DNA of 45,412 bases from a virus. The notes beneath the pieces are model-generated. The model was given only the letters and a program-made list of their open reading frames with translations, did not search any database and was not told the origin of the DNA. Location: positions 1-45,412 of IMG/VR virus record IMGVR_UViG_3300025164_000480, one strand, 5' to 3'. The position numbers and the translations under genes are program-made. Position 1 is the first letter of the stretch; each line of letters begins with the position of its first letter. Shown one piece after another: positions 4,065 through 40,336 of this stretch.

Positions 4065-7000
4065 ATGGCTGACATAGGACTTAGAGCTAGACTCGACCTT
4101 TCCCAATTTAATTCACAGGTCAAGCAATATGTAGCCGGTGTTGAGGCTATCAATAAAGCTAATGCGGATATGTCGGGAAAGACAGTTGTATATATGTCAC
4201 GAGCCAGAAACTCATTGGATCGTTTCGGTTTTTCGTGGAGACGAGTTCAAGAAATAGTTACTGGTGTATTTGTTATTGATGTTTTCAGAAAGATTTCAAA
4301 TGCCTTGCAAGATGTAGTTAAAGAAGCTGTAGGAGCTGTCGGAGAATTTCAACAATTACAAATACGATTTGAAGCCTTAGCAGCAAGAGATTTTGCACGT
4401 CAATTTGGGGGAAGTGTAGCAGATGCTTTCGGTAAAGTTACCGAACAATCTAAACAGTTATTGCTATGGATTAGGCAAATTGCGGTCACAACTCCATTTA
4501 GTGTTGAGACTATTTCTAATGCTATTGCTTACGGTCAAGCGTTCGGATTTAATGTTGAGCAATCAAAACGTCTTGCATTAGCCACGGGTAACTTCGCGGC
4601 TGGCATGGGTTTGACCAATGAGCACATGGAACGAATTATTTATAACATGGGTCAAATGTTAGCGTCTGGTAGAATTCTTGGACGAGAATTACGAGACTTG
4701 GCTAACAACTTCGTTCCTGTTAATGACGTTATACAAGTTATGGCGGATAGGGCTGGTGTTTCATTTGGTGAGATGCGGCAGAGAATGAAAGAGGCGAAAG
4801 TAAGTGCCGGAGAGTTTATTACGGTATTTGTAGAAATGGCTGAGAAAGACTTTCCAGATGCTATGGAAAGAATGAGTAGAACTCTCCGGGGAGTTATGCA
4901 AAATATTCAGGACTTTATTCATACCTTTATTGGTCTAGAACTATTAGGTCCAATAGGAGCTAAAGTTGCGGCTACTCTAGCAGATGCTTTAACTAGAGCA
5001 TTTCAACCAGATGTTGTTAGATTTTTTGCTGCTGCTGGAATAGCTTTAGCAAAAGCATTCGACATTATAGCAAATGTTCTAAATACATCTTTAATACCGG
5101 CAATAAAAACATTTTTCTCCAGTTTAGGAATTGGTGCTCCTACCGCATTGGACGTTGCTAGTGCTATCTTGCATTTAGCAATAGCTTTCAAATTTCTAGT
5201 CAAGGGAATATCAGTAGCTATTCAAGGAGTTTCGAAAGTTCTACAGTTTATCTTAAAAGCATTTAGAGATGCTTTTGCACCCTTGATTCCACAAATGGGT
5301 CAATTTGGATTTAATGCGATCAGGGCATTTGCTGAAGGAATGGCAAAAGCTGTCATTCTTATCTTTCAAGTTCTAGCTGCTGTAGCCAGAGCTATAACCA
5401 GACTTTTGAAAGCAGCAAGTCCTCCAAGATTATTACCTGATTTAGATTGGTGGGGTCAGCGTACCATGCAATCATGGTTGAATGGTTGGCTTGCGGCAGA
5501 TTTTTCTATTTTTAATGATATTGCAGGAATAGTTTCTAGCTTTATTCGATCTTTATCCGGAAGAATACCTGAAACTGATATTATCCCTAGAATTCTAGGA
5601 ACCAGAGCTGCTATTGCTCAAGCTGTCAATGAAATTAGATCAACCGGAGAAATAACTTCTCAAGCTCTAAATAGAATATGGCGAGCAGCAGGATTAACGT
5701 CAAGATCTATACGTGCATTTATTAGAGCCTTGCTGGAATCAAAAAGAGCTGCGATTGTTTTTGATAATGTCAAGAAAATATTGCAATTTGATCCGCACTC
5801 TCTAATAACTTTTGAGATATTCGGAGAACGCATTAGAAATATCAATGATTTGATGCGTGTAGCCCAACGATTGACCGGAGAACTCGGAGTTGCTATAAGA
5901 GCTTATGTGCAAAATCTAGCTGAAGTTCAAACCATACAGGCTAGATTAGTTATTTTACAGTCTAGACTAAATGAGCGAACTGAATTTTATGACGATCTTT
6001 TGCGCTCTTTACGGTCACAACTTGAAGAGGTAACAGAAGTTGAGGACGAGGAAATACGTATACGGGAAATACAAGAAGCTCTAGCTACTGGATTATTAAC
6101 AGCAGAAGAAGAAAGACGCTTGCAAATGGAGTTGCAGGCTATTCAAATACAGCGAAATATTCGTCAAACAGAGAGACAGAGGGATGAAGAAATTAATGGC
6201 TTGGAAGATACCATCGATGCTGAACAAGAAAGATTAAGAATCGTTGAAGAGTCAATGGAACGTCAGGGAGAATTAGCTGAGCATCTTGCTGAACTGCAAA
6301 GGCAAGCTGCGGAGGATCAATTAGAGGCTGCAAGAGCATTAGTAGAAATTCAAATTGAAAATAATCAATTAATGTCGCAACAATTAGCTTTGTTGGACAA
6401 AATAGCCAAAGCCGTCGGAGGTTTAGCAGATGAGTGGGAAAACTTAGATGTTGAAGCTTTTGAAGGTCTAGAAACTAATATTGACGACATTATTTCTGAT
6501 ATGCAGGATGACTTGCAAACTGCTATTGACACCCTAACAAAAGATATAGCTGCTCAAATGCAAACGGTTATTGATGAATTTTTAAAGCCGTTTAGGGAAT
6601 TATCAGGTAAATTAGAACCTTACATTACTGACATTCAGACTGTTATAACTACTGGATTTAATTGGATTGCCGGTATAATTGATAGATTTATAAACTCTCC
6701 ACTTGTATCTGATGTTTCTATCTTTATAACCGGAATAATAGCATCAATATCAGAAAAATGGGCTGAAAAGTCTCCTGAGATTGAAAGTGCTGTAAACGGA
6801 TTTTTGGATAAATTCGTTGGATTTATAAGTACCTTCAAGGAGTTTATTCTAACAGAAGGTCCATTAATCTTGACGGAGATTGGAAAATTCATAACTGGTG
6901 TATTGGAGGCTTTGGGTATAGATCCTAGTAAAATAGCTGATTTAGGATTTTCTTTATTGACGACTGTAATTGAAGAAATAGGAAAGGCTTTTACCGGATT

Positions 7001-37532: not shown

Positions 37533-37558
37533 AAAAGATTACCTTTCGGTAATCTTTT
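37533..37558. terminator. Bidirectional intrinsic terminator
   Basis: AAAAGATTACC (37533-37543), loop TTTC, GGTAATCTTTT (37548-37558). An A-run precedes and a T-run follows the stem, so it can stop transcription from both strands. It lies exactly where the + strand genes meet the - strand genes and overlaps the stop codon of the - strand gene. Confidence 0.85.
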
Positions 37559-38324: not shown

Positions 38325-38630
38325 TTATTCTCCTTTTAAAGGTTTAAATAACTCATTGACCAGTATTTCTTGTAACTTTTCGTAAATTCTATTGATTATG
38401 ATAAATGCTATTCGATGTTTACAAAATTCTCCCCTATCTATCGAATCAGGACAATGACAGCCATACTTTGTAGTCCCGTACGCATAAAACTTTTCTGCAC
38501 TTTTACCACTCTGAATTATCTGCAAAGCCTTTCTTACACGAGCATTACTCAACTGACCTCGCTTTGCAGCTCCAAAAGCCTTATTCCATTCTCTGAATAG
38601 CAAGGACTTAAAAAGTTTAGCGTCATCCAT
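38325..38630 (-). CDS. Small SWIM zinc-finger protein
   Basis: A 101-residue protein with the SWIM pattern C-x-C-x(n)-C-x-H at Cys58, Cys60, Cys70 and His72 (GCHCPDS, EFCKHR). SWIM fingers bind DNA or mediate protein contacts; most occur in larger proteins, and here the finger is nearly alone, with an N-terminal basic helix (residues 8-45). It is the first gene downstream of the promoter TTGCCT-17-TAAACT, starting about 20 bases after the predicted transcript start. A role in binding host nucleic acid or protein is possible. Confidence 0.65.
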   Translation of the reverse strand: MDDAKLFKSLLFREWNKAFGAAKRGQLSNARVRKALQIIQSGKSAEKFYAYGTTKYGCHCPDSIDRGEFCKHRIAFIIINRIYEKLQEILVNELFKPLKGE

Positions 38631-38655
38631 TTTGGACTCCTGTGCTTACATATTT

Positions 38656-38684
38656 AGTTTACCACACCTGATCTCTTTAGGCAA
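38656..38684 (-). promoter_or_regulatory. Minus-strand promoter for the SWIM operon
   Basis: On the - strand, TTGCCT (38684-38679), a 17-base spacer ending TGG, and TAAACT (38661-38656). It lies just downstream of the terminator of the large RNA and drives the three-gene operon. The TTGC box plus extended -10 matches the promoters at 40.1 and 41.6 kb. Confidence 0.75.
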
Positions 38685-38694
38685 GGCTAGAGGG

Positions 38695-38739
38695 TATAAA
38701 AAATTCTGGGTGAGATAGTATTCGATACCATCTCACCCA
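38695..38739 (-). terminator. Intrinsic terminator of the large RNA
   Basis: On the - strand the arms TGGGTGAGAT (38739-38730) and ATCTCACCCA (38716-38707) pair fully, with four more pairs after one mismatch. The sequence GAATTTTTTATA follows, a proper U-tract. It closes the structured region 38740-39520 and fixes that region's sense as the - strand. Confidence 0.85.
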
Positions 38740-39520
38740 CATTACTAGCGACTGAGGTTAAGCTCGGCTTAACACGAGAAGATTAGATCTAACCAACTCT
38801 CCCAGACGCAGTTGCGAGAGTTAGGGTTGCAGGACTGGTACTCACCACCGCTAACATCATCATGTTATTAGCTCTCGCAGTAAATTAGAAGGTTCTACGC
38901 TGCTTCTTAAGCACTATGCACCAACAACAGTCCTGACGGGACCCTGGATTTCGACACTCTGTATCTATGCCTATTGGTTCTAACCGTTAGTATATAGCCG
39001 AGTCAATAGAAATCCTGCATTTTCATCATTTCATGCGGAACTACACTACTTTGAATGCCTTGCTTTCCGTCTAAATCGTTTAGGTGCATAACGGTCTAAC
39101 GTCCCGTTGCTAACCCGCTGGCGTAGGATTAGTTCCTTTACCGAGTGCCAGACTCTTGACCAAAGACAGGCGACGGTCTGTCCTCAATCCAGACTTTTAA
39201 ATAGACTGCAAATTAATTAATAACGTTTTCTTCTGGTTACGCCTGTACCTCTGCCCAGCACCAGAAAAGCTCTAGGAGGTTTGCTTATTATGTCAATTTG
39301 CAGTCCACTATTATAGTGGGAGCTACTTAGATTCACCGCGAAGGAAAAAGGCAAAGAAATGGTTACTTTCTTTTCGCTCTCCACTTGCCTGAAACTAAAT
39401 TGGTACTTTCCAGCTTATTACACACGGTCTGGGTTCTCAACTTAGTTTCAGGCAAGTGGGGCAGTCATTGATTTGCTAGACCTCTGACTGCCTCGTGTGT
39501 GCCCCGAACACGGGTGTTCG
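38695..39520 (-). ncRNA. Large structured noncoding RNA (GOLLD/ROOL-like candidate)
   Basis: An 826-base region without a convincing gene on either strand, richer in G+C than its surroundings, and ending in an intrinsic terminator. Strong pairings include an 18-base perfect stem (39381-39398 with 39442-39459); GGCAGTCA/TGACTGCC (39460-39467/39485-39492); GACTGCAAATT/AATTTGCAGTC (39204-39214/39295-39305) enclosing TTCTGGT/ACCAGAA; and CCACTA/TAGTGG (39305-39319). Further down are GCGAGAG/CTCTCGC (38814-38820/38872-38878) enclosing TAACAT/ATGTTA, and GTTAAGC/GCTTAAC (38757-38773). The promoter at 40.08 kb probably produces it together with the basic-protein gene just upstream. Size, setting and folding resemble the ornate phage RNAs GOLLD and ROOL. 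Membership in a known class is not shown. No tRNA, group I or group II intron signature was found. Confidence 0.7.
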
Positions 39521-39523
39521 AAG

Positions 39524-40015
39524 TTAATCGCTGGGAGCTTCCCAAACATTTGTCCGTGAAACTCCAGGTTGATTGCCGATCGGCGTGGCTTTTACGCTGA
39601 TAACTTTCTTTTCTTTCTTTGCACTTTTGACCGCTCCACCTTCACCCTCAGCTTTCTCTTTCTTAGCCCGAGGTTTGCGGGGAGTTTTGCCGAACTCTTC
39701 GCTCTGCAAAAGGTCAATGCCGGTCGTCATAACTTCACCGTGGAGATAACGTGTCCTGCCAACAAAAACGATCTGAAAAATGGGATGCAGCGGAGAATTC
39801 ATCCCACGATCGCCTCCGGTAGCACGAACCATCTTGGAAACCGGAATGCTGAGTTCCTGGCAACGTTTGGAAAGATCTGCTAACTTCACATATCCAGCAG
39901 GGACTTCTGCGACCGTGAGCTCTACTCTGCGTGCCGCAACCTGCTCTTCAGTCCAGGATTCGTCCCGGAACTGTCGGCGAGGCTTTTTGCCTTCTACAAC
40001 TTTTGTTTCTGACAT
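39524..40015 (-). CDS. Basic Lys-rich protein upstream of the large RNA
   Basis: A 163-residue protein. ATG 40015 is chosen because aaggag lies 9 bases upstream; a longer frame lacks a site. Residues 1-100 form a compact alpha/beta domain (YVKLADLSKRCQELSIPVSKMVRATGG is split across 45-70; then IFQIVFVGRTRYLHGE). Residues 110-140 are Lys/Pro/Arg-rich, a nucleic-acid-binding tail. Its codons are clearly richer in G+C than most genes here, suggesting high expression or separate origin. It shares a promoter with, and ends 4 bases before, the hairpins of the large RNA, so it may bind that RNA; histone-like DNA binding is the alternative. Confidence 0.6.
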   Translation of the reverse strand: MSETKVVEGKKPRRQFRDESWTEEQVAARRVELTVAEVPAGYVKLADLSKRCQELSIPVSKMVRATGGDRGMNSPLHPIFQIVFVGRTRYLHGEVMTTGIDLLQSEEFGKTPRKPRAKKEKAEGEGGAVKSAKKEKKVISVKATPIGNQPGVSRTNVWEAPSD

Positions 40016-40072
40016 AGAATTTTTCTCCTTTTTGAATATTTGGATAGCTGAACCGCAATCCATTCTGCACTA

Positions 40073-40101
40073 ATAATACCACAAATCACTTCATATTGCA
40101 A
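40073..40101 (-). promoter_or_regulatory. Strong minus-strand promoter
   Basis: On the - strand, TTGCAA (40101-40096), exactly 17 bases ending TTTGTGG, then TATTAT (40078-40073). Both the -35 and extended -10 (TGG TATTAT) are good. The start is near 40066. It drives the basic protein and, by read-through, the large RNA. Confidence 0.8.
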
Positions 40102-40122
40102 GGGTAAAACTGAAATTTAGGC

Positions 40123-40260
40123 TTATTCATTCTCTGCTTTATGGGCTATATAGACTGCAATAACGGCTACAACTAGACCCAATAAGATGAATAGACAATT
40201 TCCAAGCCATTGGGTTTGCGGTATCGTCATTGCCCTAGAAATTTGAATTAATTCTATCAT
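40123..40260 (-). CDS. Tiny membrane protein (45 aa)
   Basis: A 45-residue protein with one clear membrane helix (residues about 19-38, CLFILLGLVVAVIAVYIA) and a polar N-terminus. aagga lies 6 bases before its ATG (40260). It overlaps the preceding 33-residue frame by 26 bases and is the last of three tiny membrane genes that follow the 151-residue gene. The TAA is followed by a 21-base gap to the promoter at 40.1 kb. Confidence 0.6.
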   Translation of the reverse strand: MIELIQISRAMTIPQTQWLGNCLFILLGLVVAVIAVYIAHKAENE

Positions 40261-40336
40261 TTCCAATCCTTATTGAAAGAACTATATGGACTAAAGCTAG
40301 AAGTATCAAAATTGAACACCCGCAAAATTTCAACAT
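40235..40336 (-). CDS. Tiny membrane protein (33 aa)
   Basis: A 33-residue frame: hydrophobic centre ILILLALVHIVLSI with two Cys before it and a polar tail. Its ATG (40336) follows directly on the stop of the upstream gene (TAA ATG) and a ggga lies 6 bases before. The overlap with the next gene is 26 bases. A real gene is likely but not certain because of its small size. Confidence 0.4.
   Translation of the reverse strand: MLKFCGCSILILLALVHIVLSIRIGNDRINSNF

Follow-up and report, generated by a model that had tools for sequence, protein, structure and literature searches.

Gene setting of the locus

The window, i.e. the whole stretch of 45,412 nucleotides analysed here, is a 45.4 kb virus fragment, and the virus record is fragmentary. 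Its genes include those for tape measure, tail, helicase, DNA polymerase and primase proteins, and neither ARAGORN nor the Rfam tRNA model found a tRNA or tmRNA in it. The part of interest lies between two minus-strand genes and contains the following features:

38325..38630, minus strand: gene for a SWIM-like 101-aa protein with conserved CxCPD...CKHR, the other border of the slot described below
38707..38739, minus strand: intrinsic terminator with a 15-bp stem and a 3-nt loop, then the T tract GAATTTTTTA
38707..39523, minus strand: structured RNA region without genes, running from the basic-protein stop to the terminator, with no open reading frame above 55 aa and fold z-scores of -5.9 to -9.3
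39204..39305, minus strand: second long hairpin, a 17-bp stem in the fold (arms 39204-39214 / 39295-39305, 11 nt, 100% complementary)
39381-39402 / 39438-39459, minus strand: long hairpin, 22-nt arms, 95% complementary, containing an 18-base perfect stem
39524..40063, minus strand: gene for a basic, lysine-rich protein of 179 aa, directly upstream of the RNA region

The name SWIM was assigned by eye, and the 101-aa protein has no Pfam match. From the stop of the basic-protein gene (39524) to the start of the next minus-strand gene (38630) there are 893 gene-free bases. The longest open reading frame in this gap has 55 aa and no Pfam match, which is why a protein-coding reading was rejected, and the GC content of the gap is 0.447 compared with about 0.36 across most of the window. 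The original prediction of some 800 gene-free, GC-richer bases thus describes the locus well, and so do its long stems, including the 18-base perfect one, and its closing minus-strand terminator, found at 38739-38707.

Minus-strand transcription would pass through 38707..39523 behind the basic-protein gene and end at this terminator, and gene and RNA region probably form one transcript. The strong promoter that had been proposed ahead of them did not hold up: one promoter-like match (TTGCAA-17-TATTAT, with TG ahead, 40101-40073) agrees with the consensus at 9 of 12 positions, and the count of such matches in that region is not above chance (13 versus 9.8 expected, sd 3.5). No internal minus-strand promoter was found in the RNA region. 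Elsewhere in the window, a perfect 11-bp hairpin at 37533-37558, which scores as a terminator on both strands, lies between convergent plus- and minus-strand gene blocks, and the cumulative GC skew changes direction near it.

Folding and database searches of the RNA region

On the minus strand, 851 nt of the region fold with an energy of -277.3 kcal/mol (z -5.9; 0 of 20 shuffles as good), the exact 893-nt gap reaches z -9.3, and the best-folding 400-nt block in the whole window begins at 39201. The plus strand folds almost as well (z -6.0), so the strand is not given by fold energy alone, and the central 230 nt (38960-39190) are not better than shuffles (z +0.5). Taken together, the near-equal plus strand and the unremarkable centre leave fold energy alone as little proof.

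Among phage and plasmid records, blastn found no whole-length homologues of the RNA, and no homologues of either long hairpin were found. The Rfam 15 covariance models gave nothing at gathering score across the window, and over 38400-40300 at E <= 10 just microRNA-like hairpin noise and one snoRNA-like match appeared. The microRNA-like matches on the long hairpin lie far under the gathering score and were dismissed. The models for GOLLD, ROOL, OLE, HEARO and raiA had no match to the window at gathering score or at E <= 10. None of the tests applied places the RNA region in GOLLD or ROOL; the original prediction, made without a match to either, had proposed a new member or a new class.

Identification of a conserved module

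An exact 17-base word from the 3' part of the RNA, GGTGAGTACCAGTCCTG, served as search seed. It matched eight viral contigs, five of the matches extending to 23-27 nt, and the loci L118 and L155 were added by two looser words. A module is now known from six lineages, namely the window and at least five other phage lineages, all six found via one loop word. A second DNA word, AGCAACGGGACGTTAGA, gave three matches, none extending past 20 nt, and these were taken as chance. No other words of at least 10 bases are common to the window RNA and the other members; the module is all that they share. The stretch 38813..38879 is a conserved structured RNA module matching no catalogued family, and the remaining roughly 730 nt are unsupported by homologues. 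A literature search on the loop sequence found no paper. The parts of the module are as follows:

38813..38879, minus strand: conserved module of 62-67 nt, a three-way junction with an H-type pseudoknot as its third arm
38872..38879, minus strand: 5' strand of P1, UGCGAGAG, pairing with 38820-38813, CUCUCGCA, over 8 bp
38852..38867, minus strand: P2 hairpin UAACA-UGAUGA-UGUUA, from the model and the pair counts
38825..38851, minus strand: pseudoknot arm, made up of S1, S2 and the loop GAGUACCAGUC
38851-38848 with 38832-38829, minus strand: S1, GCGG with CUGC; 87.5% of cells paired, one compensatory pair
38846-38844 with 38827-38825, minus strand: S2, GGU with ACC; 100% of cells paired, one compensatory pair
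38843-38833, minus strand: the almost invariant loop GAGUACCAGUC of the pseudoknot arm

This architecture was derived by eye from the matched loci, and the third arm is assigned to the H type because S1 and S2 cross. In the consensus, the 5' half runs through P1, a short joint rich in A, P2 with about 5 bp, the 5' strand of S1, one base and S2 (RGU), and the 3' half through the loop GAGUACCAGUC, S1' (CUGY), an A, S2' (ACY), CUA or CA, and P1'. Four other lineages have GUGNUGA as their P2 loop, and in L118 this loop has 3 nt. The sequences of P1 and P2 differ between lineages yet still pair.

The family definition tested comprised P1, P2, the S1/S2 pseudoknot and the GAGUAYNAGUC loop. Over the six distinct lineages, 95.4% of 108 cells are paired in a manual alignment guided by the structure, with N letters as spacers that keep the columns in register. 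Covariation, which the original prediction had named as a check, was assessed on the 62-nt part at 38879-38813 and emerged clearly there: 13 of the 18 pairs carry compensatory changes on both sides (40 double-change cells), and in P1 both sides have changed at each of the six columns counted. None of 500 shuffles reached this pairing on any measure, and structures slid by 1-3 columns were 31-51% paired. Most of the covariation signal comes from P1 and P2, both of which lie outside the search words.

A covariance model built from the five non-window members found the window copy at 54.6 bits, with an E value of 3e-20 that is flattered, as the members were first chosen by a word from the window's loop. 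In a same-word control with 38 distinct contexts, a P1 of at least 6 bp together with a P2 of at least 4 bp was in place only in the true members (7 contexts, 6 lineages); the background for this geometry was 40 of 4000 random positions (1%). No further convincing match to the module was found in 1.35 Mb of other phage loci, and among the genomes of an 85k-species bacterial and archaeal collection five word matches occurred, none with the P1/P2 geometry. A blastn search of the INPHARED phages with three module copies gave short chance matches only; phage 16Q (H35) was inspected as a candidate from that set and rejected. The locus L165 in an archaeal MAG (22.6-24.4 bits) was judged a chance match to the loop.

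Where the module occurs

In phage G007, which is related to the window phage across the genome (primase 54%, polymerase 53%), the module at L107 lies about 3 nt behind a tRNA-Arg, and in L155 it lies roughly a dozen bases behind what looks like the 3' end of a tRNA cut by the contig edge. In both it stands alone, as an element of about 65 nt beside the tRNA. In L109/L106/L113 it precedes a tRNA-like gene by about 130 nt, and in L118 it lies downstream of a tRNA-Glu that ARAGORN calls but Rfam fails to confirm. The module of L108 is found within a 686-nt gene-free stretch (z -5.6, MFE close to the centroid), and neither there nor in the window was a tRNA found. Three of the six lineages have the module within 200 nt of a tRNA, for which the probability is about 1e-5 given how densely tRNAs occur in 75 other phage loci. 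The nearby tRNA-type gene shares the strand of the module in three lineages, probably four.

Two of these loci show further details. The tRNA-like gene of L109 (L109:480-558, minus strand) scores 31.5 bits with Rfam, is not called by ARAGORN and has an odd anticodon arm with 6 bp and a 4-nt loop. In L118, a second, diverged tandem copy of the module (L118:3748-3797, 13-14 bits) has its own 7-bp P1 as judged by eye.

These positions bear on two other explanations. An element acting at the DNA level, such as a cruciform, a recombination site or a packaging site, would account for inverted repeats that fold on both strands. The module, however, is on the strand of the tRNA wherever a tRNA is present, the terminator is on the strand of the module, and G-U pairs are present in P1 and S1, so that a DNA element is very hard to credit. 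The second explanation, a riboswitch or leader acting in cis on the following gene, could draw on L107 and L155, where an open reading frame begins about 20-30 nt behind the module. Yet the genes behind the module are unrelated from phage to phage, and what follows it is a terminator in the window and a tRNA-like gene in L109. As no downstream gene is constant, a cis-regulator is improbable.

An exchangeable slot

No close relatives of the window phage were found via the basic protein or by blastn. A search with the polymerase yielded five records (G001-G005, 53-57% identity), none with a copy of the RNA or of the module. The order of basic protein, slot, 89-aa gene and SWIM-like protein is kept in G002 and G004, and homologues of the SWIM-like protein occur with the same gene order in G004 and G007. 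The slot has 893 nt in the window, 461 nt in G004, where it holds a tRNA-like element, and 90 nt in G007, a phage that came to light through its module. Because the nearest relatives lack the module at this site and the slot content differs (461 and 90 nt), the site seems to be a slot whose RNA can be exchanged.

Homologues of the basic protein were found in G002, G004 and G007, and it has no Pfam or PHROG family. Its place directly upstream of the RNA agrees with what had been proposed. As evidence of an RNA partner it fails, because the homologues in G004 and G007 keep the gene order without the RNA. The protein (39524-40063) belongs to an undescribed phage family. Several copies of this family are found per genome (L094:2568-3275, L094:10926-11498, L095:2477-2959 and L178:12981-13475), one of them with an apparent zinc-ribbon-like CxxC N-terminal part.

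The varying slot content is in line with an island of several small RNAs (the hairpins, the module and the terminator), of which only the module matters. That the module is alone in L107 and L155 points the same way, whereas the single terminator and the lack of any detected internal minus-strand promoter speak against separate small RNAs. Such an island is a serious candidate, though held at somewhat less than an even chance, and it is compatible with the end-forming or end-protecting role discussed below rather than an alternative function.

Comparison with large phage RNAs and small ribozymes

To our knowledge, nobody knows the function of the large phage RNAs near tRNA genes, such as ROOL and GOLLD, the latter an RNA-only multimeric cage. 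In GOLLD, a phage RNA that exceeds 800 nt in many of its members and is often found close to tRNAs, the 3' part is conserved and the 5' part varies; ROOL, likewise a large RNA of phages, contains pseudoknots and often lies near tRNA islands (PMC12286853). The RNA of the window resembles GOLLD in being a phage RNA of similar size whose 3' part is conserved and whose 5' part varies. It differs in that neither the window nor the module loci match the GOLLD covariance model and in that the conserved part has only about 62 nt and also occurs free-standing. With ROOL there is likewise no covariance-model match for the window RNA; as for the ROOL-type phage setting near tRNAs, the window has no tRNA and the module lies near tRNAs in other phages.

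The whole stretch of about 800 nt could nevertheless be one large ornate RNA of this kind, which would fold and oligomerise with the module as one of its domains. Its size, terminator, phage setting and z-scores of -5.9 to -9.3 are consistent with this, as is the embedded module of L108. On the other side, the covariation test covers the module only, no word of at least 10 bases is shared with L108 outside it, the central 230 nt are not special, and the module is free-standing in other phages. One large RNA of the GOLLD or ROOL kind is accordingly considered unlikely. From the large ornate RNA of the original prediction there remains a structured minus-strand RNA with a terminator, in a phage; a single functional unit made of the whole 800 nt stays conjectural. 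Since two lineages embed the module in structured stretches of 690-820 nt, the region could still function in the manner of a large ornate RNA, and since the module stands alone as an element of about 65 nt beside tRNAs elsewhere, the functional unit may be much smaller than had been thought.

Theta ribozymes, which are HDV-like, are small pseudoknotted RNAs directly at phage tRNA genes (PMC10879173). The module shares with them its small size, its pseudoknot and its adjacency to phage tRNA genes. Compared by eye, theta and other HDV-like ribozymes form a nested double pseudoknot, whereas the order in the module is P1, P2 hairpin, S1/S2 knot and P1'. By the helix order of the modelled structure the module is not HDV-like, and a search of L107 in Rfam at E <= 5 gave the tRNA and chance matches only, with no HDV-like match. 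The hammerhead and other small self-cleaving ribozymes are similar in having 50-80 nt, a junction or pseudoknot and invariant unpaired bases. The CUGANGA/GAAA core of the hammerhead is absent, however, the GUGNUGA of the module sits as the P2 loop in a closed hairpin, and there is no Rfam match. Compact size, a junction plus a pseudoknot and fixed unpaired bases have been listed as traits of likely self-cleaving ribozymes (PMC10085705), and the module has these traits.

Possible roles of the module

The module would fold by itself, as a three-way junction with an H-type pseudoknot that holds the GAGUACCAGUC loop. Phages appear to place it in stable-RNA units, either beside or behind tRNA-type genes or inside multi-domain RNAs of about 700-800 nt. 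Stems that vary freely while unpaired bases stay fixed suggest a site that is recognised or reactive, and the tRNA and stable-RNA setting suggests formation or protection of RNA ends. The module is therefore tentatively regarded, at rather less than even confidence, as a self-contained RNA device for making or protecting RNA ends within the stable-RNA units of phages. One possibility is self-cleavage beside the attached RNA, which theta ribozymes achieve with another fold; the other is a block to host exonucleases that lets the attached RNA persist. Pure trimming of tRNAs would leave unexplained that the module precedes the tRNA in L109 and that the window and L108 have none.

The fixed bases of the loop would suit a site that binds a protein or a ligand just as well, and binding of a host factor would be nearly as likely as end formation or protection. 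In such a decoy RNA, the invariant loop would bind a protein of the host or the phage, or else the ribosome, and the RNA would act in trans, e.g. as a sponge or a counter-defence decoy, and P2, which has anticodon-arm geometry (5 bp, 7-nt loop, U second in the loop), could mimic a tRNA. Besides the free stems with fixed unpaired bases and the tRNA neighbourhood, the dimensions of P2 (5 bp and 7 nt in L107, L109 and L155, about so in L108 and the window) and the G004 slot, whose tRNA-like element has a shortened anticodon arm, are in favour. The P2 loop of 3 nt in L118, a G at loop position 32 and a varying anticodon position are not, and no tRNA D or T arm and no binding partner are known. A decoy is possible but, taken as the explanation in its own right, doubtful.

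It seems an evenly balanced proposition that the module represents a class of structured RNA not described before, one that may cleave itself or block exonucleases and that tailed phages pass around within their units of tRNAs and stable RNAs and also incorporate into large ornate RNAs. A conserved core of 62 nt has thus been found both inside large structured RNAs and alone beside tRNAs. It is short enough to be synthesised, so the question of function is directly testable (self-cleavage, nuclease resistance, protein binding), and it gives a sequence and covariance signature for collecting more members.

Further observations in related genomes

The element in the G004 slot (L095:3222-3292) is a tRNA-like cloverleaf that scores 48.5 bits with the Rfam tRNA model and is not called by ARAGORN. 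Its anticodon arm is shortened to 4 bp and a 5-nt loop, and it is perhaps a non-decoding tRNA mimic. G005 has a gene-free, strongly folded stretch about 0.9 kb behind its primase gene (L099:6055-6490; z -6.7 on one strand over 6053-6670), with no Rfam match and no module. In G007, the DNA polymerase matches as two overlapping pieces in different frames (L178:1084-2962), and this break is a frameshift, an intron-like break or a sequencing error.
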